Virus record (IMG/VR): IMGVR_UViG_3300047333_000104
Location: 1 to 64,000 of that record
Direction: 5' to 3' (one strand)
Origin: a virus
DNA length: 64,000 nucleotides
Part shown: positions 10,179 through 37,148 of the stretch, in pieces
Position numbering within the stretch: position 1 is the first letter of the stretch
Layout: every line of letters starts with the position of its first letter
Position numbers and translations under genes: made by a program
Notes under the pieces: generated by a model
Seen by the model: only the letters and a program-made list of their open reading frames with translations
What the model was told of the DNA's origin: nothing
Database searches by the model: none

Positions 10179-10409
10179 ATGCGAGTAATTATAGACCTCC
10201 CGGAGGCCATCGATGATCACTTGAGCTATTTAATTAACGAGAGAGAGCGGGAGCGCCGGATCAGCACCTCTCCTTTGGCGGGAGCGCCTAAATTATCTCG
10301 TTCCGCGCTGCTCAAGGCGATTATTGAGATCGGGTTTGAGGGATTCATAATGACCTATCCGACCGCCCAATCTCTGCTCCCCCTCCGTGGATGGGACCGC
10401 CGGAAATGA
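10179..10409 (+). CDS. Ribbon-helix-helix-like DNA-binding protein
   Basis: A 76-residue protein. MRVIIDLPEAIDDHLSYL gives an N-terminal beta strand and helix, and LSRSALLKAIIEIGFEGF (about 39-56) a second helix pair, the order of a CopG/RHH repressor. AAAAGGA precedes the ATG at 10179. As the first gene after the control region it is a natural candidate for an autoregulator. The assignment rests on pattern only. Confidence 0.55.
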   Translation: MRVIIDLPEAIDDHLSYLINERERERRISTSPLAGAPKLSRSALLKAIIEIGFEGFIMTYPTAQSLLPLRGWDRRK

Positions 10410-11014
10410 TCGTCTACGAGGTCGAGGCCCTTCGAAAGGGTCGTCGGATTGGGATCGGGCGGAACGGGGATTTCGATAAAGCGTGGGGGCGGGCTTGCGA
10501 GATCGCACGCCTGGACCCTAACGAGCACTTTGTCGCCTTAGCCTATCTCACGATCTTGGAGCATTTTATCAGCAGGCCGAGAGGATATACCGCAAAAGCG
10601 TGTTTGTTCGAGGTTGACGGTCATGAGATAACTCTACGGTCGGAGCGGTTCGACGCGAAACACGGCGATCGGTTTCTCCGACAGCGGGAAAGACCGAAGC
10701 CACCTTTGCTTGTACTGCGAAAATCTCAAGTCGGACCGGGTCGAATGGCTCGCACGGTGGAAGAGTGGACACGGGCTGCGAGGGTTGAAGCGGGGTTGCC
10801 GGATAAGATGCTGGAACACCCGCTGCTGATCGAGCGAGAGAAGCGTGAGCATGGGACGCCTGCTTGGAGGCAATGCTGCATTCGCTATGCGGAAAAGAAC
10901 GGGCGGGCAGTGGTTCTGAGGTCGAGTGATCGAGCGACGGTCATCACTTGGTTGCCGGGTTCCTCGAGCCCCGGAGAAGGCCCTCGGCGGCCATATGTGA
11001 TTGAGAAAGACTGA
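10406..11014 (+). CDS. Hypothetical protein
   Basis: A 202-residue protein starting MIVYEVEALRKGR, coupled to the preceding gene by ATGA. It is basic and looks like a mixed alpha/beta protein; a C-terminal RYAEKNGRAVVLRSSDRATVITWLP segment forms a likely beta sheet. No known domain recognised. Confidence 0.5.
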   Translation: MIVYEVEALRKGRRIGIGRNGDFDKAWGRACEIARLDPNEHFVALAYLTILEHFISRPRGYTAKACLFEVDGHEITLRSERFDAKHGDRFLRQRERPKPPLLVLRKSQVGPGRMARTVEEWTRAARVEAGLPDKMLEHPLLIEREKREHGTPAWRQCCIRYAEKNGRAVVLRSSDRATVITWLPGSSSPGEGPRRPYVIEKD

Positions 11015-11036
11015 ACCCTACGAACGGAGTCACATC

Positions 11037-11239
11037 ATGACCGAGATCTATCGCTACACTGCGGGCCGCTTGCTTGCTTGCTTGCTGACGACACCTAGAA
11101 GTATGAGGAGTTCGATCTCATGGAGAGCGCGCACTGGTTCACGACCGGCTATCCTGTCAGCACCATTCAGCTCAACGTGGCCGTTAGCGGCGATGCGATC
11201 ATCCGGGCGTTGGCCGCCCAATCCGATAAGGAGTCATAA
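11037..11239 (+). pseudogene. Small gene disrupted by a TTGC tetranucleotide repeat
   Basis: A GGAGTCA site leads into MTEIYRYTAGRLLA, then (CTTG)4.5 at 11069-11086 throws the reading out of frame. Codon sense resumes in another frame as KYEEFDLMESAHWFTTG...AAQSDKES, ending TAA at 11237-11239, just after an in-frame TAG. The distal part can still be made alone: ATG at 11120 has GAGGAG upstream and gives 39 residues. It looks like a former ~60-65 residue gene broken by repeat expansion plus an amber codon, or a gene now reduced to its distal half. Confidence 0.5.
11069..11086. repeat. (CTTG)4.5 tetranucleotide repeat
   Basis: An 18-base simple repeat of a unit that is not a multiple of three, inside a coding context, of the kind that changes length by slippage. 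Confidence 0.85.
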
Positions 11240-11242
11240 GTC

Positions 11243-11884
11243 ATGGTCATCGAATTGAGAGACTTTACCATCTACCTCGAGGACGAACTGCCGGTCACCG
11301 TCATGGGACGGATCGTGCTTCGCGAGGACGGCAAAGTCGAGTTCCCCGCGTCCTTTCCGCCTGAGAGCGCCGACAAGATCCTCGCCGCGTTCATGAGGTT
11401 TGTGGCGGCCCGTACGGTCGGCGGGGACGTCGATGCGCGCCGGGCGCTGTTCACCGAGGCGACCGGGCTTCACGGCTGCTTCACCCCGCGAAGCCGGCCC
11501 GAGATGTGGGAGACGATGTGCATCCAGCGCGACAAGATCAACGGCCTGAAGCAGCAGATGCGTGAGATGAAGCGGGGCTACGAGCGTAAGATCGCGCGCT
11601 TGGAGAAAGAATCCCCTGCGATCCGCTTCGCCCTCGCTAACTCCGTTCCGAAGACTTACTCGTATAAGATTACCGCTGAAGGTGCGGGCGAGAGCGGCAT
11701 GGGTGGTGCTAGCGGAGGCCCTGGCGGCGACAGTCACCCGATGACCGCTAGTGAGAAGATGGGATTTGACGCGCAGCGGGCCGGAGTCCCACCGTGGGGT
11801 TGGTCGCCGTTGCGGGGGTCAGAGAATCGTAAGGAGTGGCTTAGAGGTTGGGATCGCGCGGCTGCTACGCCTAAGGAGTTGTGA
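11243..11884 (+). CDS. Protein with RMF-like C-terminal motif
   Basis: A 213-residue protein with AAGGAGTCA before the start. The central part (about 95-125) is a Lys/Arg/Glu coiled-coil (LKQQMREMKRGYERKIARLE) followed by a Gly-rich linker. The C-terminal ~35 residues, GFDAQRAGVPPWGWSPLRG...EWLRGWDRAA, follow the A..G....P......WL.GW pattern of ribosome modulation factor-like tails. That tail is frequent at the end of phage proteins. A ribosome or nucleic-acid role is only suggested. Confidence 0.5.
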   Translation: MVIELRDFTIYLEDELPVTVMGRIVLREDGKVEFPASFPPESADKILAAFMRFVAARTVGGDVDARRALFTEATGLHGCFTPRSRPEMWETMCIQRDKINGLKQQMREMKRGYERKIARLEKESPAIRFALANSVPKTYSYKITAEGAGESGMGGASGGPGGDSHPMTASEKMGFDAQRAGVPPWGWSPLRGSENRKEWLRGWDRAAATPKEL

Positions 11885-17898: not shown

Positions 17899-18092
17899 CC
17901 CGCGTTGAACGTTTGCTTGCCGAGTACCCGGCGTTGTCCCGCGAAGAAGCTGAGATGGTCCTCGAGGCGGAGCGGATCGTCGCAAGCCAGGAGCTAGAAC
18001 GTTTGGAGCACGACCTTATCCTTATCACTTTGGAAAACGCTTCTCGCTATGACGCCCCCTTCATAGCGGCGTTGAAGGCGGTAGCCACGTGA
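17895..18092 (+). CDS. Small helical protein preceding the terminase
   Basis: A 65-residue acidic protein, almost entirely helical (REEAEMVLEAERIVASQELERLEHDL). It immediately precedes and overlaps the terminase ATPase gene (GTGA). Position would suit a small packaging partner, but it is far shorter than known small terminases. Confidence 0.45.
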   Translation: MTRVERLLAEYPALSREEAEMVLEAERIVASQELERLEHDLILITLENASRYDAPFIAALKAVAT

Positions 18093-18964
18093 GCGGCCTC
18101 TTGCCGCCAGGCCCGGTCCGCGTTGAGGCGCCCTCGGAGCCGGCGCCGTTCGTCGTACCGGACTTCGCGGCGCGCGGGCGAGCGGTGCTGGAAGAGTACG
18201 TGCGGACGGGAGTGATCCCGTTTACGGCAGACGGCCTCGTCGTCTTCTACAACCTGATGATGGCGGATCGCGGATTCAATTTCCCGCCGCACCTTTTCCC
18301 TGTGGCCATGGCGCTCATGGATGATCGTATTCCGAAGCTCATGATTATCGTGGGACCAGGTAGTGGCAAGTCGAGTCTTCTATCGACGGTTTATCCCGCG
18401 TTCCGTCTCGGCCATGACCCGACTATGACGATCGTTGGCGTATCGGCCGGCGAGGCGCTTGTCCAAGGATTTATGGCCGCTGTGATGGAATGGGTGGAGA
18501 AGTCGAAGACATGGGCGCGGCTATTCCCCCATGTGCGACCCGATAAGGATCTCGGCTGGTCGACTGAGGCGGGCATGTTTGTGACCGGCCGCGCTCCGGG
18601 CGACCCTGATTCCAGTTACGCCGCATTCGGGCTTACCTCGACGAAGCTTACGGGTGTTCACGCAAGACTCATTATCTGCGACGACATCCACAATGAAGAG
18701 AACTCGTCCTCGGCATCCGCTTGCGAAGGGGTGCGATCCAAGTATTATCGGACGGTTCTTGGGCGTGCAGATCCCCGAGGTGCCCGGTTCATTATCGCCG
18801 GCCGGCGCTGGCATGAGGAGGATCTTTACGGCCACCTCGCCAAGAGCGAAGATTGGGTCGTTATGTCTTTGCCGGCGGAGCGCGTCGGTGAGAAGCAGTT
18901 ATATTGGACGGTCGAGGTTCCCGACGGCCTCGTTTGTTGTTTCACTGAAGGACGAAAATCATGA
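18089..18964 (+). CDS. Terminase large subunit, ATPase half (split gene)
   Basis: A 291-residue protein with a GTG start. Walker A is GPGSGKSS (G89-S96, K94) and Walker B LIICDD (194-199) followed by HNEEN. The ATPase motor drives DNA into the prohead. The protein then stops shortly after VVMSLPAERVGEKQLYWTVEVPDGLVCCFTEG, where a normal TerL would continue into the nuclease domain. That domain is encoded separately at 24851-25933. The last codons overlap the start of the inserted peptidase gene by ATGA. Confidence 0.9.
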   Translation: MSGLLPPGPVRVEAPSEPAPFVVPDFAARGRAVLEEYVRTGVIPFTADGLVVFYNLMMADRGFNFPPHLFPVAMALMDDRIPKLMIIVGPGSGKSSLLSTVYPAFRLGHDPTMTIVGVSAGEALVQGFMAAVMEWVEKSKTWARLFPHVRPDKDLGWSTEAGMFVTGRAPGDPDSSYAAFGLTSTKLTGVHARLIICDDIHNEENSSSASACEGVRSKYYRTVLGRADPRGARFIIAGRRWHEEDLYGHLAKSEDWVVMSLPAERVGEKQLYWTVEVPDGLVCCFTEGRKS

Positions 18965-20676
18965 CCTCTGTTAAGCTCGGACGCCTTCCCCGCCTCAAGG
19001 GTTTCAACGCTCCGAAGCTCGGCCCCGCCATCGCCGCCGCGGTATCCTTGCCGCCGACGCCGCCCGCTTCGGTCGATTGGTACTCGGCGGTAGGTAATGC
19101 TTTCGGCACTGACGGCAATCTTACGGTTGGGGATTGCACGATCGCTTGCCAAGCCCATTTGATCCAAGCGTGGACGACCAACGCAGGCAAACCATTCGCT
19201 CCGTCGCAAGCGGACTGCCTCGCCAAGTACGCGGCGCTCTCGGGATGGGACGGAACGCCGGGGGACGCGAGCGACGTCGGCCTCGTGGTTACTAAGGTGC
19301 TCGCCGACTGGCAGACGAACGGGCTCGACGGGCATAAACTGTCGGCGTGGGCCGAGATCGACGTCAAGAACCGCACCGAGCTTATGAATGCGATCTCGTG
19401 GTTTGGCGGCGTCTATATCGGCCTGAACTTGCCGATCAGCCTGCAGTCGGTGATTGAAGGCAATCTTCAGCCGGCTCCGCTCACCGTGACATGGGACGTC
19501 GTGCCGGGCGTTGATAGCGCGGCGCGGTCTTGGGGCGGACATGCGGTTCCGATCCTTGGATTTAACGCAACCGGACCGGTCGTCGTGTCGTGGGGCGCGG
19601 TGTACCAGATGACTTGGCCGTTCTACGAGGCGTATGTCGACGAAGCTTATGCCCCCATTAGCGCCGACTTTATCGAAGCGACCGGTAGCACGCCGGGCGG
19701 TCTGACCTTAGCGCAACTTCAAGCCGATCTGGCCGCCGTTGGTGAGCCCACGACCGGTCCTTCGAGCCCGTTGGTGCTGTTCCTCGACGCCGGCAACGCG
19801 CCGGAGCTCTCAGTGGGCGCAATGCTGTCTCCGGACGTCATCCTCGCCGCGCCCGGCACTTTGGCGATCGGCCTGATCGAGATCTCCGCCGTCGCACAAT
19901 CCTACGCGCTGCAAGTTACCGCGATCGAGAACTATCCCGGGTTCAGCCTCGGCAAATTATCCGGCTCGGTCGCCTGCGATCACTACGCCGGTTACACCTC
20001 GACCTTTACGGGCGGCGTGGCGCAAATCGAGTACTACACGTCGGCAGCCGGCAGCAATGTGAGCGGCGCAGGTGCGGCGTATGAGAACTTTACTGTATCG
20101 GGCAACATCGGTACCTGCGCTACCGTTTCGGACGGGGCGCAAGGCATCGTTTACGAAGAGTCGCCAGAGGGCAATGGGATTACCCTCGTGGGTGTGATGA
20201 CCAGCAATGGTGCGGCTTACGTTTTCACGAGCAGCGACATCAATAACCTCGAATACGGGATTGAACTGTTGTCGGATTGCTCGCCCGCTATTCAACGCCT
20301 ATACCTCGGATTGCTCGGCCGTCCCGGTAGTGCTGCGGAACTCCAATGGTACAACGACAACGGATGGAAGGCTGCTTACGCCGCGTTGGCGGGAAGCGGC
20401 GTCCCGAGCGCGGCAGCGGTGTTGCTGGCCAACCCTCAGTTCGTAAGTTATTTCACGCAATCTTCCGAGTTCGTAGCGTTGAACACCGGCTACGGCACGA
20501 ATCCGACGCTGTTCGTCAATTATGTGTACGAGACCGCGCTCGGACGTACGGCGGCTCCCGTCGAAGTGACGTACTGGGTGAACGCGATTGGATCGATGGG
20601 ATACCCCGCGGTTATCGCCAGCATTACGCAATCGGCCGAAGCGATTCAGTTCTTGTCGGTTCGGAACGTCGGGTAA
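18961..20676 (+). CDS. Papain-like cysteine peptidase with DUF4214 tail
   Basis: A 571-residue protein. KLGRLPRLKGF and SVDWYSAVG begin a papain-like (C1-type) domain. GDCT places the probable nucleophile at Cys59 and WGGHAVPILGF the histidine at His194. Residues about 265-440 are a beta-rich linker with a cysteine pair. The C-terminus (about 440-571) is a DUF4214 module with two repeats (LYLGLLGRPGSAAE, VYETALGRTAAPVE), found in surface and adhesin-like proteins. No signal peptide. It could be a virion enzyme or act on the host surface. It interrupts the terminase. Confidence 0.8.
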   Translation: MTSVKLGRLPRLKGFNAPKLGPAIAAAVSLPPTPPASVDWYSAVGNAFGTDGNLTVGDCTIACQAHLIQAWTTNAGKPFAPSQADCLAKYAALSGWDGTPGDASDVGLVVTKVLADWQTNGLDGHKLSAWAEIDVKNRTELMNAISWFGGVYIGLNLPISLQSVIEGNLQPAPLTVTWDVVPGVDSAARSWGGHAVPILGFNATGPVVVSWGAVYQMTWPFYEAYVDEAYAPISADFIEATGSTPGGLTLAQLQADLAAVGEPTTGPSSPLVLFLDAGNAPELSVGAMLSPDVILAAPGTLAIGLIEISAVAQSYALQVTAIENYPGFSLGKLSGSVACDHYAGYTSTFTGGVAQIEYYTSAAGSNVSGAGAAYENFTVSGNIGTCATVSDGAQGIVYEESPEGNGITLVGVMTSNGAAYVFTSSDINNLEYGIELLSDCSPAIQRLYLGLLGRPGSAAELQWYNDNGWKAAYAALAGSGVPSAAAVLLANPQFVSYFTQSSEFVALNTGYGTNPTLFVNYVYETALGRTAAPVEVTYWVNAIGSMGYPAVIASITQSAEAIQFLSVRNVG

Positions 20677-20855
20677 TGATCGTCCGGCTTAAACATGTAG
20701 ATCTCGTCGGCCTGTCGACGTTCGCGGTTCAGCAGATGTTGATTGAACGCGGGCTCGATTGGCGGACAGCCAAAGCACATGCGGATCACACGAGCGGGGA
20801 GATCGTCTATGAAGGGGAGCCGATGGCGGGGTCTACGCCGCCGGCCGCCCCCTAA
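20676..20855 (+). CDS. Small hypothetical protein
   Basis: A 59-residue ORF starting MIVRLKHVDLVGLSTFAV, coupled to the peptidase by a TAATG overlap. Its end overlaps the convergent GP88-like gene by 23 bases. Function unknown. Confidence 0.5.
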   Translation: MIVRLKHVDLVGLSTFAVQQMLIERGLDWRTAKAHADHTSGEIVYEGEPMAGSTPPAAP

Positions 20856-21621
20856 AGGTCTGCCCGTGCAGGATGAAAGTGATCGTCTTGTCCTTTGCGG
20901 CAGGCGCCCAGCACAGCCCGCACGTTCCGCAGCAATCCGTCTTGTTCGTTTGTACAGGGCAAATGATGGACCCCGGAGGGGGCGCAGCCGGCGTAAAGTC
21001 AACCGTGGTGGCGCGCATAGGGCCGACCTGGCTCCCCGAGAAACGGACAACCCAACGATCTGGGTATAGGTCGTTAATTGATGCGACGATCGTGCCGATT
21101 TCGGTGTCCGGTTGTCGTGCCGTATATCCGAATACCCGAAGGGCCGGGAATTGGTTCATCGCCTGCTTCCACAGAAGGGCGTAATCGGCGCTGTAAAAGT
21201 CACCGAGGATATGGAGCCGAACCGCGAAACCTTTAGGGTGCTTGGCGTTTTTCTCGGCTAGTTCTTTCAGCAGTCGGCGTTCTAAATCCTCGCCCGATCG
21301 GTGCCGCCGGCTATAGGGCATGCCGTTCCCATAACAGTTCGCCCAGTGCCCGCAAGAGGTCGGGCAAGTCGCGCGTTCCTCCAGCGTCAGAGTATAGAGG
21401 GGCATGCCCGCCCATGCGCCCTTCACTATCTTGTTGCCGAGTTTTCGTTGATTGATGCCGGACACAAGCAAACGCGGCGAGTCCTGAACGTCGGCCACCG
21501 TGGTGGGGAAGATCGTACGGGCTTCACGTAGCGCGGGGTGATCGGTAGACAGGCCCCGGACTCTCTGCGGCGACAGTTCCGCATGCTCGGTGAACCGCCG
21601 CAGGGGTTTGGACATTCTCAT
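20833..21621 (-). CDS. GP88-like cysteine-motif protein
   Basis: A 262-residue protein. It has CPTSCGHWANCYGNG (about 86-100), HILGDFYSADYALLW (about 136-150), RVFGYTARQ and a C-terminal CPVQTNKTDCCGTCGLCW cluster. This order matches the phage GP88 family, which resembles radical-SAM-type proteins in its three-Cys motif and may bind an Fe-S cluster. The role is not established. TAGGAG precedes the start; ATGA overlap with the YkgJ-like gene. Last gene of the minus-strand cargo operon. Confidence 0.7.
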   Translation of the reverse strand: MRMSKPLRRFTEHAELSPQRVRGLSTDHPALREARTIFPTTVADVQDSPRLLVSGINQRKLGNKIVKGAWAGMPLYTLTLEERATCPTSCGHWANCYGNGMPYSRRHRSGEDLERRLLKELAEKNAKHPKGFAVRLHILGDFYSADYALLWKQAMNQFPALRVFGYTARQPDTEIGTIVASINDLYPDRWVVRFSGSQVGPMRATTVDFTPAAPPPGSIICPVQTNKTDCCGTCGLCWAPAAKDKTITFILHGQTFRGRPAA

Positions 21622-22001
21622 AGCATTTCTCCTAGATCCTCACCACCTTCCGCGCCCCGATAGTGAACGCACAGTTCCGTCGATCCCGGCTCGAACGATT
21701 TGCACAGTTGTGGGCGGTCTTGATAGATCCCGCAGCGCCCGTTCGGCAGTAGCTTTGTGCAAACGAACTCCGCATAACCGTATTGACGCCCCGTTTCGTC
21801 AGATAAGAGCGGTTCTCTAAAGCTCGCCAGGACAGAGGGTGTCTCCCCGTCCGTCATCTGCGTGTAGGGCTCATCGCGAACATTCCACAGTGGGTCGTCG
21901 ACCCAATGCGTCAGCCATTCGTCGTTCTTTATGAACTGGATTGTCTTACAGCAAGCTCCGGGCGAGTAGCATTGGTCGCAGAGGCTCACAGGAAAGCCCA
22001 T
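21618..22001 (-). CDS. YkgJ-like Cys-cluster (Zn/Fe-binding) protein
   Basis: A 127-residue protein. CDQCYSPGACCKTIQF near the N-terminus and FVCTKLLPNGRCGIYQDRPQLCKSF (from about 80, written here only as its key Cys run C..L...RC.IY..RP..C) are the YkgJ/Fe-chelating signature. I chose ATG at 22001 because an earlier start would overlap a membrane peptide in another frame; the SD is weak, so the start could be further upstream. Neighbouring Cys-rich GP88-like gene suggests a shared metal-dependent role. Confidence 0.65.
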   Translation of the reverse strand: MGFPVSLCDQCYSPGACCKTIQFIKNDEWLTHWVDDPLWNVRDEPYTQMTDGETPSVLASFREPLLSDETGRQYGYAEFVCTKLLPNGRCGIYQDRPQLCKSFEPGSTELCVHYRGAEGGEDLGEML

Positions 22002-22105
22002 ACTATGATCAAAACCCCGAGCATGAGTACGTAGGTGGTGCCGCGGATTAATCCCAGCGCGCGGGTCTGCCGCGGGAGGCTTAGTGAGCGCCACCAAGTT
22101 TTCAT
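21986..22105 (-). CDS. Tiny membrane peptide
   Basis: A 39-residue ORF (MKTWWRSLSLPRQTR then a helix TTYVLMLGVLIIVWAFL). It starts in an ATGA overlap with the upstream gene and ends 16 bases inside the YkgJ-like gene. A basic N-terminus and one membrane span are typical of small phage membrane proteins. Confidence 0.5.
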   Translation of the reverse strand: MKTWWRSLSLPRQTRALGLIRGTTYVLMLGVLIIVWAFL

Positions 22106-22296
22106 CGCCGCGCCCGTTCCTCAGCGTTCTGCGCATAGAAGGCCAACTGCTCGAGGCACTCCTCGATCCGCGTCTGCCGATCCCAGAATTCGACGATAGT
22201 CTCGGAGATTAGCGCGACGACGCGTTGGTCCGCATCGGGTGCGTCCTTATTGGCGAAGAGGTCCGCAAAGCGGGCGGCGAGTTCAGCCCCGGTCAT
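22102..22296 (-). CDS. Small helical protein
   Basis: A 64-residue acidic helical protein (MTGAELAARFADLF) with CAGGAG before the start. It overlaps the end of the GT9 gene and couples to the membrane peptide by ATGA. Unknown function. Confidence 0.5.
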   Translation of the reverse strand: MTGAELAARFADLFANKDAPDADQRVVALISETIVEFWDRQTRIEECLEQLAFYAQNAEERARR

Positions 22297-23149
22297 CGAT
22301 CATCTCCTGAACAGCATCGGCCACGACATCGGGCCGGAACGCATAAATGCAAGCGTCCGTACCATAGCGGCAGGACAGGTTCGTGGCGGGCGCCGGCAGC
22401 GTTTCCAGGCATCCCTGGCACGGCACGTCGGCCTCCATCTCCTTGACGCGCCAGCCGCGCTCACCGTGGCGGTACGGCACGCGGTATTTCGCCCGCACGG
22501 AGGTGAACAGACCGACGATCGGCGTATCGGTCGCCCCGGCGAGATGCAAGAGGGCGCTGTCGCTGCCGAGGAAGCAAAGACTGCTAGCGATCAGGTTCGC
22601 CGTCTCTCTAAGGCTCGTCTGGCCGACCGCCGAGCCCACGAACGGGCTTGTAACCCCGTCCGCTCGGAAGTCGGCCCCGCCGCCGACGAACAGCACGCGG
22701 TACTCCCGCGCGATCAGAAGCGACGACACTTCAACCCAGAAGTCAGCAGGCAGCGATCGGCTCGGCCAGGACCGGGCGGCGTGGATCGTAACGAGGCGGT
22801 CCTGCTCGCGGAGTTCGAACGGAGCAGGCGGATCAATGCCGAAAACGACCCTCTTGTGCTTGTAGTCTCTGGGAGCCCCTGCATATTCGAGATAAGCGTC
22901 CACGACGTGCATCGTCGGTTTGCGCTCATACACGAGGTTGAGGTCGATGACGCTTGTGAACCCGCCGCTCGCTCGGCCAGGCAGCAGAACCGTCGAGACG
23001 TGCGGGTTGTTGAGCAACACTTCGGGGCAGCCGGTCTCAAAGACGATCTCGGCCTCGGGGCCGTACCAGTCGCGGAGGTAGCGCAGGATCGGCGTAGCGC
23101 ACAGAACATCACCCAAGGCACCGGTACGGCGGATTAGGATGCGAGTCAT
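22283..23149 (-). CDS. GT9 (heptosyltransferase-type) glycosyltransferase
   Basis: A 288-residue protein. MTRILIRRTGALGDVLCATPILRYL is the N-terminal GT9 signature (R..GALGD.L...P). The C-terminal domain has FVGGGADF, FLGSDSALLHLAGATDTPIVGLF (key: GSDS...HLA....P.V.LF) and a Cys pair CQGCLE. GT9 enzymes transfer heptose or similar sugars from ADP-sugar donors in LPS assembly. The start follows GAGGGAGTC. In a phage it may modify host LPS or virion glycans. Confidence 0.85.
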   Translation of the reverse strand: MTRILIRRTGALGDVLCATPILRYLRDWYGPEAEIVFETGCPEVLLNNPHVSTVLLPGRASGGFTSVIDLNLVYERKPTMHVVDAYLEYAGAPRDYKHKRVVFGIDPPAPFELREQDRLVTIHAARSWPSRSLPADFWVEVSSLLIAREYRVLFVGGGADFRADGVTSPFVGSAVGQTSLRETANLIASSLCFLGSDSALLHLAGATDTPIVGLFTSVRAKYRVPYRHGERGWRVKEMEADVPCQGCLETLPAPATNLSCRYGTDACIYAFRPDVVADAVQEMIDDRG

Positions 23150-23394
23150 TTTGACTCCCTCACGATACGGTTGATATCGACCGCAACCGGTGGGTGGCCG
23201 GCGGCGACGACGGTCAGTTGGACCTTGGCGCCGAACAGCAGCGCGATCCGCTCGCGCCAAGTTGGCTTCCAGAACGAGATGAAGCTATCGCTGACGCGGA
23301 GCACCGGAAGGCCGAGGCATTTGCCCTGGGACTCGTCCCAACCCTCGGGTGCGCCGAGAACCGCTTGTTGGCCTTTGAAATGGATGGGGTTCAT
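23146..23394 (-). CDS. Conserved small phage protein
   Basis: An 82-residue protein starting MNPIHFKGQQAVLGAPEGWD. The pattern WDE..G.C.GLPV...D...SFWKPTWRERIALLFGA matches a small protein common in phages, function unknown. ATGA overlaps on both sides. Confidence 0.65.
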   Translation of the reverse strand: MNPIHFKGQQAVLGAPEGWDESQGKCLGLPVLRVSDSFISFWKPTWRERIALLFGAKVQLTVVAAGHPPVAVDINRIVRESK

Positions 23395-23588
23395 TGACGA
23401 CCCACCGAGTAAAGCCCGCATTTCGGGCAGTTGTCGGAGCCCCGCAACGTTAGGCCGCCCAAGTGTCGGCCATTGACGGACCGAAGCCAGCCTTCGACCA
23501 GCACGGCGGCGGAAAGCACGTTATCGGGAATATTTATCGAACCGATCGGTTTTCCCGAATGGCCGTCGAATAATTGAAGCAAGGCCAT
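23391..23588 (-). CDS. Small protein with CxxC
   Basis: A 65-residue protein (MALLQLFDGHSGKPIG) ending with CPKCGLYSVGRQ, half of a zinc-ribbon. AAGGGG precedes the start. Function unknown. Confidence 0.5.
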   Translation of the reverse strand: MALLQLFDGHSGKPIGSINIPDNVLSAAVLVEGWLRSVNGRHLGGLTLRGSDNCPKCGLYSVGRQ

Positions 23589-23590
23589 TG

Positions 23591-24196
23591 TTAGAACCCC
23601 TTCGGCAGCGCCGAGATATACCCCTCGTGGGCATAGTCAATCGCGATCTCGTGCGTCTCTCCGAGCGCAGCATAAAGGAAGTCGAGATTGCGCTGCTCGG
23701 CACGCAGTGTTTGCGCCCAGTCGGGTAGGGTGCCGTAAGTGAACGGGCCGTCGACATAAATCCGCGCATCATCAATCAGGAAGATGTCGGGTACTCCGGG
23801 CCGTAACGAGCGGATCAATTCGATCTCTCGGGCGAGGGGCAGGCGGAGATCGTCATCGGGCTCAACCGCGGCGTCGTTTGTCGTATAGCCGAGACCGGGG
23901 AAATGCGCGTCAAGCCAGAAGAGGACGGGATCGTCGCGCGATATGCCGCTGCCTAGGAGAACCTGCAGTCCTGCGAGGCTATCGGCCTGAAGGATAAGCA
24001 CCTCTGGGCAGCGCGCGAACCGATCTCGGGCGGCGGCATGGATCTCTTCGATAAGCTCGATCGAGTAGATATTCGGGAAGCCGGCGGCGAGCGCCGCAGC
24101 CACACCTTCGCCCGCTCCGACTCCGGTTTCGACGAAGTGCTTGATACCGTGCGCGGCGCGCAACGCGGCGAGGTCGAAGTGATTGACGATTCCCAT
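23591..24196 (-). CDS. SAM-methyltransferase-fold protein
   Basis: A 201-residue protein. HFVETGVGAGEGVAAAL (about 22-38) is a class I SAM-binding loop, IYSIEL (about 43-48) the following acidic strand, and LFWLDAHFPG (about 91-100) the motif-IV-like strand. The fold is that of small FkbM/TylF-type phage methyltransferases. It overlaps the previous gene by one base (TAATG). Substrate unknown. Confidence 0.7.
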   Translation of the reverse strand: MGIVNHFDLAALRAAHGIKHFVETGVGAGEGVAAALAAGFPNIYSIELIEEIHAAARDRFARCPEVLILQADSLAGLQVLLGSGISRDDPVLFWLDAHFPGLGYTTNDAAVEPDDDLRLPLAREIELIRSLRPGVPDIFLIDDARIYVDGPFTYGTLPDWAQTLRAEQRNLDFLYAALGETHEIAIDYAHEGYISALPKGF

Positions 24197-24765
24197 TAAA
24201 GCCTCCGCAACACGAACTCGATCGACGACTCGACGTTCGGATTGAGCGTCTGGTCGCCCTGCAAACCTTCGACGAAGAAGTCGCGCACTACCACGATCCG
24301 TTCGACCGAAACACCGTCGATCTGGCGCAGCAAATCGAGCAGATTGATCGACCGCGGCGACCAACTCTCCAGCTTGAACACCGTGAAGGTCCATTTGTGG
24401 TCTGCGTTGAACTGAGACGGCCAGAAGCCCTGCTCGTACATATCCTCGTCGGGGACGGTGATGACGAGATGGCCGCCCGGTCGGACGACGTTTATCCAGT
24501 TTTGGAGGGCGACGGCGGGGTCGGTCATGTGCTCAAGGCAATGGGCGGAATGGAGGAAATCATAAGGTGGGGCGCCTTCGAGGTATTGAGCATCCCCGTC
24601 TTCGACGTCCCAGCAGTCAACGTAGGTAATATGAGGGAAAGCCCCCATGTGACGGCCGAGACCGTCTGATCCTGCGCCGACGTCGATCCCCGCGCCGACG
24701 AAATAGCGCGTCTGGAACGCGCCGTCATTGAAACGGCGCTTTGCCGCCTTCGATTGCTCATCCAA
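24196..24765 (-). CDS. Class I SAM-dependent methyltransferase
   Basis: A 189-residue protein with a TTG start behind GAGGAGTCA. GIDVGAGSDGLGRH (about 26-39) is motif I, FLHSAHCLEHMTDP (about 70-83) the post-II/III region and WINVVRPGGHLVITVPDE the conserved RPGG strand, as in Methyltransf_11 enzymes of polysaccharide gene clusters. First gene of the minus-strand operon inserted in the terminase. Confidence 0.8.
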   Translation of the reverse strand: MDEQSKAAKRRFNDGAFQTRYFVGAGIDVGAGSDGLGRHMGAFPHITYVDCWDVEDGDAQYLEGAPPYDFLHSAHCLEHMTDPAVALQNWINVVRPGGHLVITVPDEDMYEQGFWPSQFNADHKWTFTVFKLESWSPRSINLLDLLRQIDGVSVERIVVVRDFFVEGLQGDQTLNPNVESSIEFVLRRL

Positions 24766-24792
24766 TTGATTGACTCCTCAAATCCCGCATAA

Positions 24793-24824
24793 AACGTAAT
24801 ACGTTGTTTTAATGTCGAAAGCAA
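24793..24824 (-). promoter_or_regulatory. Promoter of the cargo operon, with AACGTATTACGTT palindrome
   Basis: Minus strand: TTGCTT (24824-24819), 17 bases, TATTAC (24801-24796). The -10 box is inside the same 13-base palindrome (24793-24805) found at 13655 and 42934. Being symmetric it could also serve the rightward terminase half. Confidence 0.6.
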
Positions 24825-24850
24825 CCACAATCTAGCCTATCTTCCTCGAC

Positions 24851-25933
24851 ATGCAAACGGTTCGCGTCGCATATGGGGAGGACCCAACGGGGCTCGGCTT
24901 CTACTGGCCGCAGAGCGCCCAGAAGCGTGCCGAAATGAACGCGATCAAGCGCGGCGATCCCTCGGCCTACGAGTCGGTCTATCAGTGTCGGCCCGGCAGC
25001 CGTGAAGGCCAGGTCTTTCTCGAATCGGACTTTGTCGAATATATCCCGCCGGTCGGCCTGGAGAACGGCGTGCTCGACGAGAGCATCCGCCGTTTCGTTT
25101 CCCGAGGAACGGTTGTTCAAGCGTGGGACACCGCGTCCTCAGTCGCGGCGCAGTCCGCCTACTCCGTGTGCGTAACCGCGCTTTTGATGCCGTGCAACAA
25201 GTATCATCGCGCCGAGGACCCCGCGGTCTACGGTCCCTGCGACGACCATTACGACGTCCATCTGCTCGACCTCCATAGGGGGCGGTACGCGATCGGCGAT
25301 CTCGTCGGCGCGTTCAAGATGCAGTACCACATCTGGCGGCCGGAACTGATCCTCGTCGAGAAGAAGTCGTCTGGCATCACGCTTGTCCAGACGATGCCCG
25401 CGCTCGGGATGCCCGTTAAAGGGATCGAGCCGGAAGGCGGCAAGCGCGAGCGAGCGACTAGCAACGTCGGCGCCGGTTCCGCGCAGGGTTGGTTCCGTCA
25501 GCACCGGGTGCTTCATCCGAAAGACGCGGACTGGGTCGCACCGTGGAAGCGCGAACTCAAGGATTTCACGGGTAGCGACGAAGGCATCTCAGATCAGGTT
25601 GACGCCTCCGTGCATCTTATCCGCCACGCAATCATGTCCGGCGCGCACACCGCGCTTTTGCCAACGGATTGGAGCCCGGAGCGCGGTACGATGGCCGATT
25701 CGCAGATGGCGATGGGCGAAGGCGGGGTCTACGCGCCGTTCGCTGATCCGCGATTAGAATTACTGAACGCGCTTGACATGCTCGGGTCTATGTCGAACGA
25801 TGCGTTTGAGGGGCTCTGCGGTCGTTGTATCAGCTATTCAGGTGATACCTGCACGCTCCATCGCATGAAGAAGATCGCGTTGGACTCCTGCCTCATGTTC
25901 TCGGACGCAAACCCCGTAAGCTACTATGGGTGA
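24851..25933 (+). CDS. Terminase large subunit, nuclease half (split gene)
   Basis: A 360-residue protein. AYESVYQCRPGSREGQVFLESDF is the usual TerL linker (key: Y...RP....G..F...DF). The RNase-H-like nuclease follows: VVQAWDTASS (D93), LILVEKKSSG (E170) and SDQVDASVHL. It lacks any ATPase domain. A Cys-rich tail (CGRCISYSGDTCTLH, about 320-334) may bind zinc. No SD is visible before the ATG; an in-frame TAG lies 18 bases upstream. It must assemble with the 18089-18964 product to package DNA. Confidence 0.9.
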   Translation: MQTVRVAYGEDPTGLGFYWPQSAQKRAEMNAIKRGDPSAYESVYQCRPGSREGQVFLESDFVEYIPPVGLENGVLDESIRRFVSRGTVVQAWDTASSVAAQSAYSVCVTALLMPCNKYHRAEDPAVYGPCDDHYDVHLLDLHRGRYAIGDLVGAFKMQYHIWRPELILVEKKSSGITLVQTMPALGMPVKGIEPEGGKRERATSNVGAGSAQGWFRQHRVLHPKDADWVAPWKRELKDFTGSDEGISDQVDASVHLIRHAIMSGAHTALLPTDWSPERGTMADSQMAMGEGGVYAPFADPRLELLNALDMLGSMSNDAFEGLCGRCISYSGDTCTLHRMKKIALDSCLMFSDANPVSYYG

Positions 25934-27605
25934 CTTCGACATCAACGAAGGTGCGCCAGTCAAAGGGCGCGTCATGCTGCCATCTGCCGGGAGTGCCGCG
26001 ATGGGCGCGGGCATGTCAGGCATGGTCAGCGACGTCGAGAGCTACGCTGCGATCTTCGAGACTCAGTACGCCAGAGCGATGGACGCGAGTGACGCAGCAG
26101 CGAAAAGTATTGCCGTCCCACCAGGTATGCTGTCGTTCGGCAAGATCAGCTACATGCCGGAGAGTTACAATTCCGGCGTGCTTCAGTGGCCGGGAATCGC
26201 CCCGGAGGCCCTCCGCAAGACCGTCCGCGAGAACCTCGCGCCGCAGCTCATCATCGGTATGCGTTGCGACGACGTCATTCGCTTCTCGCAGTATTCGACG
26301 CACCCCTGGAAGCCAGGCTGGCGCATCGAGCCGATGAATTCCGAAGCGGCCCCCAGCGTGTCCGACAAAAAGGACATTCAGGAGGTCATTCGGTTCCTGA
26401 GTAACTCCAGCATCGACACGACCTACGCGCAAGCTAACGAGCGGGACGAGCGAAAGCTGACGAATTTTCAGCGGTTCTTGTCGGCGATGACGCGGGATAC
26501 GCTCACGTTCGACGGGATCGCGGTTTGGAAAGACGTCGACCAAAGCGGGAAGGTCAAAGCGTATAGCTTGTTGCCGGCCGGGAACATCCGGCTCGTCGGC
26601 CCGGACGGGTACCTCGGGAACAAAGACATCGCTTATGTCGCCGTGGACGAAGGCAACAAGATCATCCATGAGTTCACACGAGAGGAACTGACGTTCTACA
26701 TTCGCAACCCTCGGCCGGATGCAGAGTCGTTAGGCTACGGGTATCCGGAAATCGAAATAGCGATGCGTCTGGTGCAAGGAATACAGAACGCAATTGACCT
26801 AAATTGTGACACCTTTAACAAAAATTCCACACCCAACGGTATCCTCGTCCTCTCCGGTTCGTCCGTTACGCAGCGTCAACTTGATCTGCTCAACCGCATG
26901 TGGACGAACCTCAAGAAGGGCATCACGAAAGCGTGGGCTCTCCCGGTGATGGGCCTCGCGGACGGCAGCAAGCTCGAAGTCGTCGATATGACCCGGCTCA
27001 AGGGCAACGAGGTCTACTACCGCGACTTTCTCAATATGTTCTTCGGCGCGTTTGCTACTGTTTACCGGTTCCCCGTCAAGCGGATCGGCTACAAGATCAG
27101 CGGCCAGGGCCGGGACAACGAGCCGAACCAAGACGCCGCGACCGAGATGGACGATAGCGACGATCCGGGTCTTGCTCCGTTGCTCATCCACATCGAGAAC
27201 GTTATCAACGAGTACCTCGTCTGGACGCGCTGGCCGCATCTGCGTTTCACCTTCATCGGCAAGAACCCGAAAGAGGAGATGCGCGGCTTCGAGTTCCGTA
27301 AGAACGCCATGACTTTTGGGGAAGCCCGTTCGCTCGGCGATCTCGACGACCTCGAGAACGAGGCGAAGGGCGAAGACGAGAAGCTGATCGCCCGCATCAT
27401 GAACATGGCGCCGCTCGACCCGAATATGTCCGGCGTGTTCCAATCCGTGGCTGCCGCGTTTATCGCCGCCAAGTTTGGCGCGAAACCGGAGGGCGGCGAC
27501 AAGGGCAACACGATGACCAGCAAGATCGATCCGGCTCGATCGGCCGATCATGGAGCCGAAGCTGGAGTGCGGCGGGATTCAGCCGCGGAAACGAAGAAGG
27601 AATAG
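25926..27605 (+). CDS. Portal protein
   Basis: A 559-residue protein directly after the terminase with an 8-base overlap. The length, position and portal-type sequence (MSFGKISYMPESY...WKPGWRIEP..., LGYGYPEIEIAMRLVQGIQNAIDLN, NEYLVWTRWPHLRFTF) fit a dodecameric portal that forms the DNA entry vertex. The C-terminus is charged and flexible and ends AETKKE. Confidence 0.85.
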   Translation: MGDFDINEGAPVKGRVMLPSAGSAAMGAGMSGMVSDVESYAAIFETQYARAMDASDAAAKSIAVPPGMLSFGKISYMPESYNSGVLQWPGIAPEALRKTVRENLAPQLIIGMRCDDVIRFSQYSTHPWKPGWRIEPMNSEAAPSVSDKKDIQEVIRFLSNSSIDTTYAQANERDERKLTNFQRFLSAMTRDTLTFDGIAVWKDVDQSGKVKAYSLLPAGNIRLVGPDGYLGNKDIAYVAVDEGNKIIHEFTREELTFYIRNPRPDAESLGYGYPEIEIAMRLVQGIQNAIDLNCDTFNKNSTPNGILVLSGSSVTQRQLDLLNRMWTNLKKGITKAWALPVMGLADGSKLEVVDMTRLKGNEVYYRDFLNMFFGAFATVYRFPVKRIGYKISGQGRDNEPNQDAATEMDDSDDPGLAPLLIHIENVINEYLVWTRWPHLRFTFIGKNPKEEMRGFEFRKNAMTFGEARSLGDLDDLENEAKGEDEKLIARIMNMAPLDPNMSGVFQSVAAAFIAAKFGAKPEGGDKGNTMTSKIDPARSADHGAEAGVRRDSAAETKKE

Positions 27606-27846: not shown

Positions 27847-28086
27847 AAACACGCCCACGCGATCGAGAGAGCGTGGGAGAGGCACGGGTTGGAGTTGTCG
27901 GAGTCAGATTTCGAAAATGTCATTGCGTCGATCAAGAAAGGTCAGTCCATCTTGCAGGGGACCGTTGATCACGGCCTAGAGCGCCGGATAGTCCAAGTCA
28001 AAGGGAAAGTCCTTTCGGTTGTTTTCGCACCCGCCGATGGCTACATCGTTACCGTCCTATCCAATTTCAAAATGCGGAGACCCTAG
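27844..28086 (+). CDS. Small protein, possibly toxin-fold-like
   Basis: An 80-residue protein with a GTG start behind the duplicated junction. The layout (HAIERAWERHGLEL...FENVIASIKKG...RRIVQVKGKVLSVVFAPADGYIVTVL) resembles small BrnT/DUF4258-type folds in order of helix and strands, but the match is weak. Function unknown. Confidence 0.45.
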   Translation: MKHAHAIERAWERHGLELSESDFENVIASIKKGQSILQGTVDHGLERRIVQVKGKVLSVVFAPADGYIVTVLSNFKMRRP

Positions 28087-28087
28087 A

Positions 28088-31000
28088 ATGTCGAAACTTC
28101 AGTTTACCCGTCCCCCTTACGTCCTAGCCCACGCTGGCGATCAGGCAGGATGCGGTTGGTACAGAATCCAGTCGCCCCTCGAAACCCTGATCAAGAAGGG
28201 TTTGATCGCCGGCCGCATCGAGTATTCGTTTCTCTCCGACGACATGCTCCGCGCGTTGAAACCCGATATCGTGGTGTGGCAGCGCCAGTGCGAGGACTAC
28301 CAGGTCGACGCGATGCGCCGATATAAAGAGGTTCTTCCGGATCTCTATATGGTCTTCGAGATCGACGATGCGCTCTCCAAAGTGCCTGACGCATCATACC
28401 ACAAGGCGTTCATGCCGCCGAACATCGACGCCAATCTCGCCAATGCGATTTCGCTTTGCGACGTGGTCACCGTTACGACGGCGGACCTCGCGGCGCACAT
28501 GAAAACGGTCAGTGGCGGCGATACGCCGATCCGTATCGTGCCGAACATGCTGGCGCAGGAAGACGTCTACAAAGCTGACGCAGCCCGCGTGGCCGCCCGC
28601 AAGTTCCGTTCGAAGCTGCGCGTCGGCTGGGGCGGCGGCATCGGCCATACGGGGGATCTTGCCATCCTCAACCGGGCTATCGCGGAACTTGGCGACGAGG
28701 TGGAATGGGCATGGGCCGGCATGCAGCCCGAGATGCCGGAGGGTACGATCTCGAAATTCTACGGGGCGGTCGCACCGAAGGAATATCTCAGCCTGCTCGC
28801 GTCGATGGATCTCGACCTCATGATCGCCCCGATCGAGGACAACGAATTTAATCGGTGCAAGTCGAACCTGCGACTGATCGAGGGCGGCGCCTGCGGCTAC
28901 CCCGTGATCGCCAGCCCGGTCGCGCCCTACCTCAACGCTCCGGTGTTCGCCTATGCCGCCGGCCCCGAGGATTGGGCCGCTAAGATCCGCGAGTTCGCTG
29001 CTCTTTCCGCCGAGGAGCGGGGCACCTGGTCTTCCAAAATGCGGAACTGGGTCGACCGTAAATGGATTCTCGAAGAGAACGCCGAGGCTCGCGCCAAAGC
29101 GTGGCTTCCGCCGAAATCCGAACTCTTCTATCCGAGCCCGAACGTCGTCGGCAAGATCAGCGGCAGCACGATCATCGTGAGCCGCACGCTCGAAGAGGCG
29201 GCGCTTGCCCCCTATAAGGTCGTCAAGACCCTGAAGGACGCGCTGACCAGCAAGGGCCAGTCCGACATTCTTTACGTCCGGCCGAACGTTGTCATGACCG
29301 TCGATCAGATCGAAAGGCTGACGAAGCAAGAGAACTTCGATATCGCTACGATATCTACGATGAGCAATGACGGCGGTCCGTGCTCCTTTCCGCAGATCGG
29401 CCAATTTACCATGCTCGATCCCGGCGCAGCGGACGCGCTCGATCAATACTGCGCGCAGCGGCCCGGTACGGCGGCACTGACCGCTTGCGCCGGACCGGCG
29501 GTTTTGCTCAAGCGCACCGCGCTTAATGCGATCGGTTGGCCCGACGAGGACGAAGTTCTCGATCTTGCGCTGATCGAATGGTCGGCAGCGGCGGCCGGTC
29601 GAGGGTTCCGCAACATCGTCGATTTCAGCGTGTATGTCGGATGCCCCTCTCCGACGACTTTTTCGCAAGATATCGCGCACAACATGGCGATGCGGATTAG
29701 CATGCGCTGGCCGCAAGTTCAGACCGAGCATGAGAAAATCGCGGAAGCGCGCAACTTCCTCGAACTTCGTTTTCACCGCGAGTCCTACCGCTACTTGCCG
29801 CCGCAGAACCAAGGCGACTACGCGACCTGGAGTCAGGTCATGGACACGCTCGGCCCGCGCTCGCTCGCGGCCATGAACGAGTGGGACGCGGCCGACATCC
29901 GTCCCCTGGTCGTCGCGCATTCTTATGCCAAGGCGCTCACGCTTCCCGAGACCGGCGATTGGGTGCTGATGCACAAGATGGGCAGCGTCCTTCCCGAGCA
30001 GGCGATCCCGCTTTTCGCGGACTTCATCGCCAAGAACCCCGAAGCGAAAGTGGTCTACGCTGATCACGATTACCTTGATCAGAACGGCGAGCGCCAGGGC
30101 CACGATTTTAAGCCGAACTTCGACCTGCATCTGCTCATGGGCCGCGACTACGTTACCCCCGTGTTTGCTGCCCGACGCGCCGATCTCGAACAGATCTCGA
30201 CGCTCGGTAACGTTCCGGCGGAATGCCTACTTTACGAATTCGTTTTGAGCGCGGTCGCCCAGTTCGGTCGACAGAGCGTCGTTCATCTTCCCTCCATTCT
30301 CGCGCACCTTCCGGTGCCCAGAGTCGACGACCTGGCGGAAGCGGCGCGGATCAAATCGGAGATGGCCACCAAGTTCGCCGCACATATCGGCATGGACGCC
30401 CAGGTCAAGCCGCATGCGATCGGCCTCGGCTTGATGGATGTGAGCTTCGGTCGCGGCAAAACACTCGACATCCCGCACGTCTCGATCATCATTCCGACGA
30501 AGAATCGGATCGACATGATCGCCCCATGTCTTGCGACCGTCTTGTCTTTGACGACCTACCCGAGTTTCGAGGTATTGGTCATCGACAACGGCAGCGACAA
30601 GCAGGATGTGCTCGACTATTTCGCGGGGGTTGCGGACAAGCGCGTTCGGATCATCCAGCATGACGTGCCGTTCAACTGGTCTGAGATCAACAATTTCGCG
30701 GTCAAGCAGGCCAAGGGCAGCATCTTGTGCTTTCTCAACGACGATACCCGCGTTTCGTCCGGAGATTGGCTGACCGAGATGGTCGGCGCCGCGCTCTACG
30801 AGGACGTGGGCGCGGTCGGCGCTCGGCTGGTCTACCCGAACGGGACGCTCCAGCATATCGGCGTCGTCGCACGAGGCGGCATCTGCGGCCACATCCACAA
30901 GGGGCTTGCGGCCAATCTGATCGGGTACCACGGCATCGCTATCCTGCCGCACGAGAACGCCGCTCAGACCGGAGCATGCATGGTCGTTCGCCGCGAAATA

Positions 31001-31897
31001 TACGACCGGATCGGCGGTTTCGACGAATCTTTTTCGAATAACTACAACGACGTGGCGTTTTGCCTAGAAGCGCGCCGTCTCGGCCTGGTTAACGTTTATG
31101 CGCCGCGCGCCGAGTTGCAGCATTTCGAGGGCGTATCGCGAGTGTCGGGCATGACGTCCGAGGGGCAGAAGCTCCTGCATGAGGAGGGCGTCTTGCTCGG
31201 CGATAAGTATCCCGAGGACGATCCCTACTGGAACCGCAATCTCGTATTCGCCGGCCAGAAGGGCGGCATGTACGTCGTCGGCACCAATTACGATATGCTC
31301 AATTGGATGCCGCCCGTGTACCCATGGGCCGGCGAACGCGGCGAACCGCGCCGTGTTCTCCTGGTCGGTCCGACTGAAACGGCGCTCTCCGAACGTCAGG
31401 ACGGTTGCGCGGTCTTCACACTCGGCATCCGCGGCAACGAAGTGCGGATCGTCGATCCGCCGATGGAGAACAGCAAGACGTTCGATCTTCGTTACCCGCA
31501 GGAGATGGTCGAGTCTCTCGCCGCCCTCGGGATCGACGAGGTTATCCTGACTTCGGCAGCCGGCGTCCCGTTGATCGTCTTATCATTCTTGAGCCGCCTC
31601 GGGCTTCCCGTCACCTATCGGCCGATCGACGCCGAGATGGTATGCCCGCGCCTCGACCTGACCGCTTCCGGCTCGCCGTGCGACCGGGGATGGGCGACAG
31701 GCGGCTGCCAATCGTGCCTTGACGAACACGGGTCGGCGAATGGTTACGTGAACCGCATCTCGTGGATGAGCGAATGGGTTCGGTTCACCAGCAACCCCTC
31801 GGTAACGATCGATCTCTCGGAGGTCGAAGAGGAACGGTTTGCCGACGCGATCATGGAAGTGTTTCGGCCGGACGAATTAGTGCGGGCGGCCGAATGA
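28088..31897 (+). CDS. Giant multi-domain glycosyltransferase (GT4 + GT2 modules)
   Basis: A 1269-residue protein between portal and protease genes. Residues about 1-360 are GT4-like (GCGWYRIQSPLE; NRCKSNLRLIEGGACGYPVI). About 360-790 look like a degenerate GT-A module (VVYADHDYLDQNGE). A full GT2 domain starts near 798 (VSIIIPTKNRID) with the metal motif NDDT (D885, D886) and ends with GGFDESFSNNYNDVAFCLEA. The last ~150 residues are GT-B-like with a Cys cluster. Such proteins build polysaccharide chains. No membrane span, so it is probably cytoplasmic, acting on virion proteins or host glycans. Confidence 0.85.
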   Translation: MSKLQFTRPPYVLAHAGDQAGCGWYRIQSPLETLIKKGLIAGRIEYSFLSDDMLRALKPDIVVWQRQCEDYQVDAMRRYKEVLPDLYMVFEIDDALSKVPDASYHKAFMPPNIDANLANAISLCDVVTVTTADLAAHMKTVSGGDTPIRIVPNMLAQEDVYKADAARVAARKFRSKLRVGWGGGIGHTGDLAILNRAIAELGDEVEWAWAGMQPEMPEGTISKFYGAVAPKEYLSLLASMDLDLMIAPIEDNEFNRCKSNLRLIEGGACGYPVIASPVAPYLNAPVFAYAAGPEDWAAKIREFAALSAEERGTWSSKMRNWVDRKWILEENAEARAKAWLPPKSELFYPSPNVVGKISGSTIIVSRTLEEAALAPYKVVKTLKDALTSKGQSDILYVRPNVVMTVDQIERLTKQENFDIATISTMSNDGGPCSFPQIGQFTMLDPGAADALDQYCAQRPGTAALTACAGPAVLLKRTALNAIGWPDEDEVLDLALIEWSAAAAGRGFRNIVDFSVYVGCPSPTTFSQDIAHNMAMRISMRWPQVQTEHEKIAEARNFLELRFHRESYRYLPPQNQGDYATWSQVMDTLGPRSLAAMNEWDAADIRPLVVAHSYAKALTLPETGDWVLMHKMGSVLPEQAIPLFADFIAKNPEAKVVYADHDYLDQNGERQGHDFKPNFDLHLLMGRDYVTPVFAARRADLEQISTLGNVPAECLLYEFVLSAVAQFGRQSVVHLPSILAHLPVPRVDDLAEAARIKSEMATKFAAHIGMDAQVKPHAIGLGLMDVSFGRGKTLDIPHVSIIIPTKNRIDMIAPCLATVLSLTTYPSFEVLVIDNGSDKQDVLDYFAGVADKRVRIIQHDVPFNWSEINNFAVKQAKGSILCFLNDDTRVSSGDWLTEMVGAALYEDVGAVGARLVYPNGTLQHIGVVARGGICGHIHKGLAANLIGYHGIAILPHENAAQTGACMVVRREIYDRIGGFDESFSNNYNDVAFCLEARRLGLVNVYAPRAELQHFEGVSRVSGMTSEGQKLLHEEGVLLGDKYPEDDPYWNRNLVFAGQKGGMYVVGTNYDMLNWMPPVYPWAGERGEPRRVLLVGPTETALSERQDGCAVFTLGIRGNEVRIVDPPMENSKTFDLRYPQEMVESLAALGIDEVILTSAAGVPLIVLSFLSRLGLPVTYRPIDAEMVCPRLDLTASGSPCDRGWATGGCQSCLDEHGSANGYVNRISWMSEWVRFTSNPSVTIDLSEVEEERFADAIMEVFRPDELVRAAE

Positions 31898-36990: not shown

Positions 36991-37014
36991 CTTTCTCGGT
37001 TGCTCTCGAGCACT

Positions 37015-37046
37015 AAAGGCCCGCTACGTAGCGGGCCTTTTCTTTT
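37015..37046 (+). terminator. Rho-independent terminator after the capsid gene
   Basis: A perfect 13-bp inverted repeat AAAGGCCCGCTAC/GTAGCGGGCCTTT (37015-37040) followed by TCTTTT. It lies 25 bases after the capsid stop and separates head genes from the homing endonuclease. Confidence 0.95.
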
Positions 37047-37148
37047 GAATAGCTATTGCGCAAAAAGTTTCATCGTGGCATAACAGGCGTGCCCTTTCCT
37101 CCACAGAAGGGGCACGCCCTAACCTACCCGTGAGAAGAGACCTCACCG

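Follow-up and report, generated by a model that had tools for sequence, protein, structure and literature searches.

We find that the large terminase (TerL) of the uncultured tailed phage recorded as IMGVR_UViG_3300047333_000104 is probably made in two parts, one polypeptide with the ATPase and another with the nuclease and the domain-linking helices, and that these would work together as one motor. We put the probability of this at about 0.85. The stretch of DNA analyzed, hereafter the window, comprises 64,000 nucleotides, positions 1 to 64,000 of the 87,337-bp record. The sequence evidence that points to a two-chain TerL consists of separate open reading frames (ORFs), a conserved break point, turnover of the cargo between the two ORFs, purifying selection on a split nuclease, and complete predicted folds. 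An earlier interpretation made from the letters of the window (the sequence-only reading) had placed the two TerL ORFs at exactly the positions that we confirm here, with the Walker motifs in one and an RNase-H-like nuclease in the other.

18089..18964, plus strand: TerL ATPase chain, 291 amino acids (aa) (phrog_38, AF2, Foldseek)
24851..25933, plus strand: TerL nuclease chain, 360 aa, with 'FYWP...YQCRP' helices and a RuvC-type nuclease (phrog_38, AF2, Foldseek)
25926..27605, plus strand: portal protein, directly 3' of the nuclease chain (phrog_15361, 2.5e-22; 57% to L003)

When compared with phrog_38, a TerL profile of 760 positions, the ATPase ORF matched positions 276-479 (E 2.8e-40) and the nuclease ORF matched positions 487-713 (E 5.7e-17), which places the break at 479/487. 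This coverage indicates that the pair of ORFs holds the core of TerL and that nothing sizeable has been lost at the break. The ATPase ORF opens with a GTG start that overlaps the ORF upstream, carries a Walker A motif (GPGSGKS) and a Walker B motif (LIICDD), and ends 4 residues past the conserved CCFTE motif. A PDB profile search matched it to 4bij and 8dgc_E, and Foldseek matched the AF2 model of the chain (pLDDT 89.4) to the TerL ATPases 8dgc_E, 2o0j and 7ks4; by profile, PDB profile and Foldseek alike, it is a TerL-type Walker A/B ATPase. The nuclease ORF begins with an ATG 7 codons ahead of a conserved YG, and an in-frame stop lies 15 nt upstream of this ATG. It keeps the RuvC-type acidic residues (in QAWDTA, LVEKK and DQVDA), which are invariant or near-invariant among relatives, and D93, E170, D248 and D251 are invariant across 29 sequences, as befits a RuvC/RNase-H-like nuclease. 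Its AF2 model (pLDDT 82.4, with a low-confidence region at 268-303, C-terminal to the catalytic core) was matched by Foldseek to the G20c and RB49 TerL nuclease domains (5m1p, 3c6a). Each chain is predicted to fold as a complete TerL domain. No second TerL ATPase or nuclease was found elsewhere in the 87,337-bp record, and there is a single TerL ATPase per record. At the C-terminus of the nuclease chain (window 25817-25933), we also observed four cysteines, C323, C326, C334 and C347, that are invariant in 9 family members, often together with His; this motif, C-terminal to the nuclease core, is a possible metal site.

Since searches with the window's nuclease or portal sequence alone returned no relative, alignments were required, and the family was surveyed by scanning the contigs of IMG/VR and GTDB with them. 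This yielded 32 distinct close-family members including the window, with L002/L011, L013/L015, L090/L092 and L095/L096 counted as one member each. TerL is fused in one ORF in 19 of the 32, and the nuclease is an ORF of its own in 13; in the window and its 12 split relatives, no single polypeptide holds both ATPase and nuclease. The contig of one split member, L081, stops short of the expected ATPase position. The canonical TerL outgroups used are all fused.

Fused: L014, L016, L017, L030, L033, L035, L036, L037, L080, L090/L092, L091, L094, L095/L096, L098, L100, L101, L105, L106, L107
Split: window, L002/L011, L003, L012, L013/L015, L022, L025, L026, L027, L029, L031, L032, L081

The chain break lies in a loop that is specific to the family. 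Alignment with ordinary TerL revealed it as an extra segment of approximately 40-70 residues that follows the ATPase core (...LPAER) and precedes the stretch 'FYWP..KR.E...YQCRP', which corresponds to '.LWPE...YQQRP' of canonical TerL, just ahead of the nuclease. Every chain break in the family falls inside the loop, and the domain-linking helices therefore travel with the nuclease chain. The start of the nuclease is also conserved in place, with an ATG placed precisely 7 codons ahead of the conserved YG in 7 of the 13 split nuclease ORFs, on distant branches and including the window. L025 has a GTG at this place, and the fused L017 retains an ATG there. A distant TerL on two contigs from Armatimonadota metagenome-assembled genomes (L082 and L083, 9114-10597) is split as well, with an ATGA overlap of nuclease start and ATPase stop that sits shortly before 'ALWPEV.PERLL...YQGEP'; judged by sequence, this split is apparently independent and occupies the same position in the structure.

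In L002, L003, L029 and L032 the ATPase and nuclease ORFs overlap with zero insert, while in 8 lineages, the window included, intervening genes part them. These arrangements bear out the two-polypeptide TerL that the sequence-only reading had offered as one option. They lend no support to its proposals that a 5.9-kb insert split terL or has to be removed, given that the split occurs insert-free in relatives and that the closest split relatives carry orthologous cargo. Because genes separate the two ORFs in the 8 lineages, joining by frameshift is impossible there, and in the window the in-frame stop before the nuclease ATG together with ten intervening ORFs excludes a frameshift fusion. Comparison of the split nuclease ORFs of L002 and L011, whose DNA is 95% identical, gave 48.7 synonymous and 6.3 non-synonymous changes, a ratio of their rates (dN/dS) of 0.031. 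Thus, selection acts strongly on a nuclease that is produced free of the ATPase, and with one family containing both fused and split TerL, one ancestral ORF is now two conserved ORFs. The gene after the nuclease is the portal gene in most relatives, with one extra gap in L011. The near-identical contigs of L002 and L011 differ by 1.07 kb inserted between the nuclease and portal genes (L002 6915-6928 versus L011 1162-2233), and the nuclease/portal boundary therefore also accepts inserts.

We built a tree of 39 rows from both TerL domains. The window, L025, L026, L027, L003 and L013 form one clade (support 100/99) in which all 6 members are split and 4 of 6 carry a GT9 gene as cargo at the junction. 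The sequence-only reading held that the same arrangement throughout the family would speak against a recent insertion; this holds in the window clade, and the wider family also has fused TerL. At least 5 changes between split and fused states are required on the tree, and a single origin of the split was rejected by the approximately unbiased (AU) test (p 3e-5 for a smaller set, 2.2e-4 for a larger set). Since the deep branches are weakly supported, we do not claim a direction, fission or re-fusion; the shared start place in distant lineages and the relic ATG in fused L017 hint at some re-fusion. Because they are interleaved in the tree, the split and fused forms are by implication functionally interchangeable. 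This bears on the idea that the ATPase alone is a nuclease-free motor like that of phi29 and that the nuclease chain is an independent cutter that does not bind it. The phi29 packaging ATPase does function without a covalently attached nuclease, and the nuclease gene here is free-standing. However, the nuclease chain keeps the TerL domain-linking helices, which would be superfluous in a free cutter, and interchangeability fits such a cutter poorly, so we consider the idea unlikely.

Between the two TerL ORFs of the window lie 5.9 kb, the longest gap found in the family, where the gaps range from 0 to 5.9 kb. We count ten ORFs here, 2 on the plus strand and 8 on the minus strand, in place of the eleven and nine of the sequence-only reading.

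18961..20676, plus strand: 571-aa protein with a C-terminal DUF4214 (PF13946, 6.8e-08; phrog_19005, 1e-19)
20676..20855, plus strand: 59-aa ORF whose start overlaps the stop of the 571-aa ORF (ORF coordinates alone)
20833..21621, minus strand: gp88-like protein (PF17338, 9.5e-08; phrog_2554, 4.8e-36)
21618..22136, minus strand: CxxCxxCC putative metal-binding protein (PF03692, 7.1e-06)
22102..22296, minus strand: 64-aa ORF (no Pfam family)
22283..23149, minus strand: GT9 heptosyltransferase-like protein (PF01075, 5.7e-14)
23146..23421, minus strand: 91-aa ORF (no Pfam family)
23391..23588, minus strand: 65-aa ORF (no Pfam match above the curated cut-off)
23591..24196, minus strand: protein of approximately 201 aa, methyltransferase-like by eye (no Pfam or PHROGs match)
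24196..24765, minus strand: 189-aa methyltransferase (PF13489, 1.4e-11)
24766..24850, no strand: gap of 85 bp that separates the methyltransferase gene from the divergent nuclease gene, containing ACGTAATACGT (sequence; promoter scan)

The ATG of the 571-aa ORF overlaps the ATPase stop (ATGA), at the same place where the nuclease starts in L002 and L032. Most of the minus-strand ORFs overlap adjacent ORFs by 1 or 4 bases or more, and from their coordinates these overlaps resemble those of working operons. In the 85-bp gap, ACGTAATACGT (window 24795-24805) is an 11-nt near-palindrome and a possible operator or promoter element.

One alternative is that this block is an intron, or something twintron-like, that is spliced from the RNA to give one TerL chain. 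The terL genes are common intron sites, and splicing of terL in Vibrio phage ICP1 has been shown by RNA-seq and RT-PCR (PMC10448857). We nevertheless regard splicing as very unlikely here: the sequence-only reading had seen no group I or II intron, and we likewise obtained no Rfam match at the gathering cut-off and none at E<=1 within 18800-25000; the 5.9-kb insert includes an antisense operon of eight genes; the two ORFs persist, with overlapping stop and start, in relatives that have zero insert; and the insert content is wholly different among lineages. The other form of removal that had been proposed, excision of the insert from DNA by site-specific recombination before packaging to restore one gene, has precedents in cellular genomes in the skin and nif elements. 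Here we found only chance-sized matches among repeats flanking the insert, and neither a recombinase nor a homing endonuclease among the window junction genes by Pfam and PHROGs. Moreover, since the overlapping two-ORF form occurs in nature, rejoining would not yield one ORF, and we find excision scarcely conceivable. Split-intein trans-splicing was considered and rejected: the ATPase tail ends 4 residues past CCFTE, the frame of the nuclease is open for just 5 codons ahead of its ATG, and the intein-like sequences of L003 and L013 sit at Walker A, not at the chain break.

The genes found at the junction differ from one split lineage to another.

L022: one small gene, 108 aa
L012: one small gene, 204 aa
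L013/L015: Mom-family gene (PF25680, 2.4e-27)
L031: both chains of ribonucleotide reductase, large and small (identified by eye), and a D12-class (Dam-type) adenine methylase (MethyltransfD12)
L081, 5' of the nuclease: small reductase chain and a 157-aa ORF
L026: GT9 gene alone, antisense
L027: GT9 and methyltransferase genes, antisense
L025: methyltransferase, CxxC-like and GT9 genes, all sense

L025, L026 and L027 come from datasets other than the window's, and their GT9 proteins (L025 plus strand, L026 and L027 minus strand) are 44-46% identical to that of the window at the same junction. The junction methyltransferases of L025 and L027 are 45% and 44% identical, respectively, to the window's 189-aa protein, and the window's CxxCxxCC protein matches a frame within the L025 junction with 62% identity across 50 residues. 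L025 is the window's closest split relative and carries its orthologous cargo on the strand opposite to that of the window. These orthologues indicate that the window cargo has long resided at this junction within its clade, with its orientation reversed in L025, and neither misassembly nor recent insertion fits orthologous cargo on the other strand. A join of unrelated fragments, or a decayed prophage with a broken terL, would be conceivable for a single record from a metagenomic contig. It is highly improbable given the GT9 genes shared at the junction by L025, L026 and L027 and the methyltransferase genes of L025 and L027, the ATGA overlap at the left edge, the intact catalytic cores and portal, and the dN/dS of 0.03 in a split relative. 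At the L027 junction, a 257-aa protein is NUMOD-like by eye with no Pfam match, and we make no homing-endonuclease claim for it. From these comparisons, the junction appears to have hosted unrelated cargo repeatedly, with lineages gaining, swapping or inverting genes there.

We propose that the position of the chain break, in the family-specific loop that parts the ATPase core from the helices, allows each chain to fold alone. With the ATPase and nuclease already encoded apart, insertions between their genes would be tolerated, and different lineages would collect, swap or invert cargo there, the window clade having glycosyltransferase and methyltransferase genes. The two chains would bind non-covalently at the portal to form a single ATPase-nuclease motor, and the nuclease gene would be transcribed from a local promoter or via read-through. 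In a further form that we hold to be possible but doubtful, the motor would be heteromeric, with an ATPase ring that translocates and a detachable nuclease subunit that joins only to initiate packaging and to make the headful cut, and the split would be reversible, repeatedly evolved and double as a cargo site. Several results weigh against a two-chain TerL. A promoter scan found no sigma-70-like promoter above chance in the insert or in the 85-bp gap before the nuclease, which also leaves unproven the separate promoter that had been ascribed to the minus-strand block. No Shine-Dalgarno sequence precedes the nuclease ORF, as the sequence-only reading had noticed; several relatives' nuclease ORFs are the same. 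The overlapping ORFs of L002, L003 and L029 may be compatible with a fusion product made by frameshift. Finally, tblastn with the nuclease found no close-family member among annotated phages, and the function assignment therefore rests on homology.

Other features were observed in the family. The TerL ATPase is interrupted at Walker A in four relatives (L003 3589-5709, L013 5729-7414, L106 and L107), with an intein-like sequence ending VTHN/S in L003 and L013, and in L013 the match to the portal is interrupted by a 1.1-kb gap (10225-11339). Just 3' of the portal gene in the window (28019-31897) is a 1292-aa glycosyltransferase-rich protein with homologues in the same region of most members, fused or split, which looks like a family hallmark. 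The AT-skew extremes of the window are at 34001-35000 (+0.31), 37001-38000 (+0.23) and 41001-42000 (-0.25).

TerL is usually studied as a single chain, and its nuclease must be off during packaging; how translocation is coupled to cutting is an open question. If true, a natural motor with a separate nuclease and fused close relatives would allow direct tests of this coupling in which the nuclease chain is omitted, titrated or swapped. Where TerL serves as the marker gene in virus discovery, split forms can go unnoticed or be double-counted. Two short terminase families in PHROGs each match one of the window's ORFs, phrog_4758 (243 positions) the ATPase and phrog_5573 (250 positions) the nuclease, so further split TerLs may sit unremarked in databases. 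The ATPase/nuclease junction also offers a new site in which to search for phage cargo. Full-text searches of an open-access library turned up no description of a two-chain TerL, which is not proof that none exists.

Among known systems, the terminase ATPase-nuclease UL15 of herpesviruses likewise has its coding parts on either side of opposite-strand genes, its two exons flanking UL16 and UL17 and being joined by host splicing; we know of no such machinery in a bacterial host. The terL genes of ICP1, whose splicing was shown experimentally (PMC10448857), and of Campylobacter phage IBB_35, which has an intein and an intron (PMC3322345), are also in separate coding pieces with sequence between them. 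Both are intron- or intein-interrupted and neither is reported to be two-chain, whereas in the window antisense genes lie between the pieces and no intron was found. Canonical TerL (T4 gp17, T7 gp19, PhiV-1, P74-26; phrog_38) shares with the split members the ATPase core, the linking helices, the RuvC-type nuclease and the position before the portal gene. Unlike the split members, it is one chain, and the loop at their break is specific to the family. The closest parallels in gene structure are Aeh1 NrdA, phage 25 gp43A/43B and T4 topoisomerase, each an essential phage enzyme made as two polypeptides from one ancestral ORF (PMC2988022). The Aeh1 and T4 splits house the homing endonucleases mobE and mobA, whereas none was found in the window junction, where cargo turns over; enzymes of this type do not require such an endonuclease. 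The polymerase halves gp43A and gp43B of phage 25 co-purify and are active (PMC2988022), and by analogy with these and other phage 'genes in pieces', the two TerL chains most likely reassemble into one motor.

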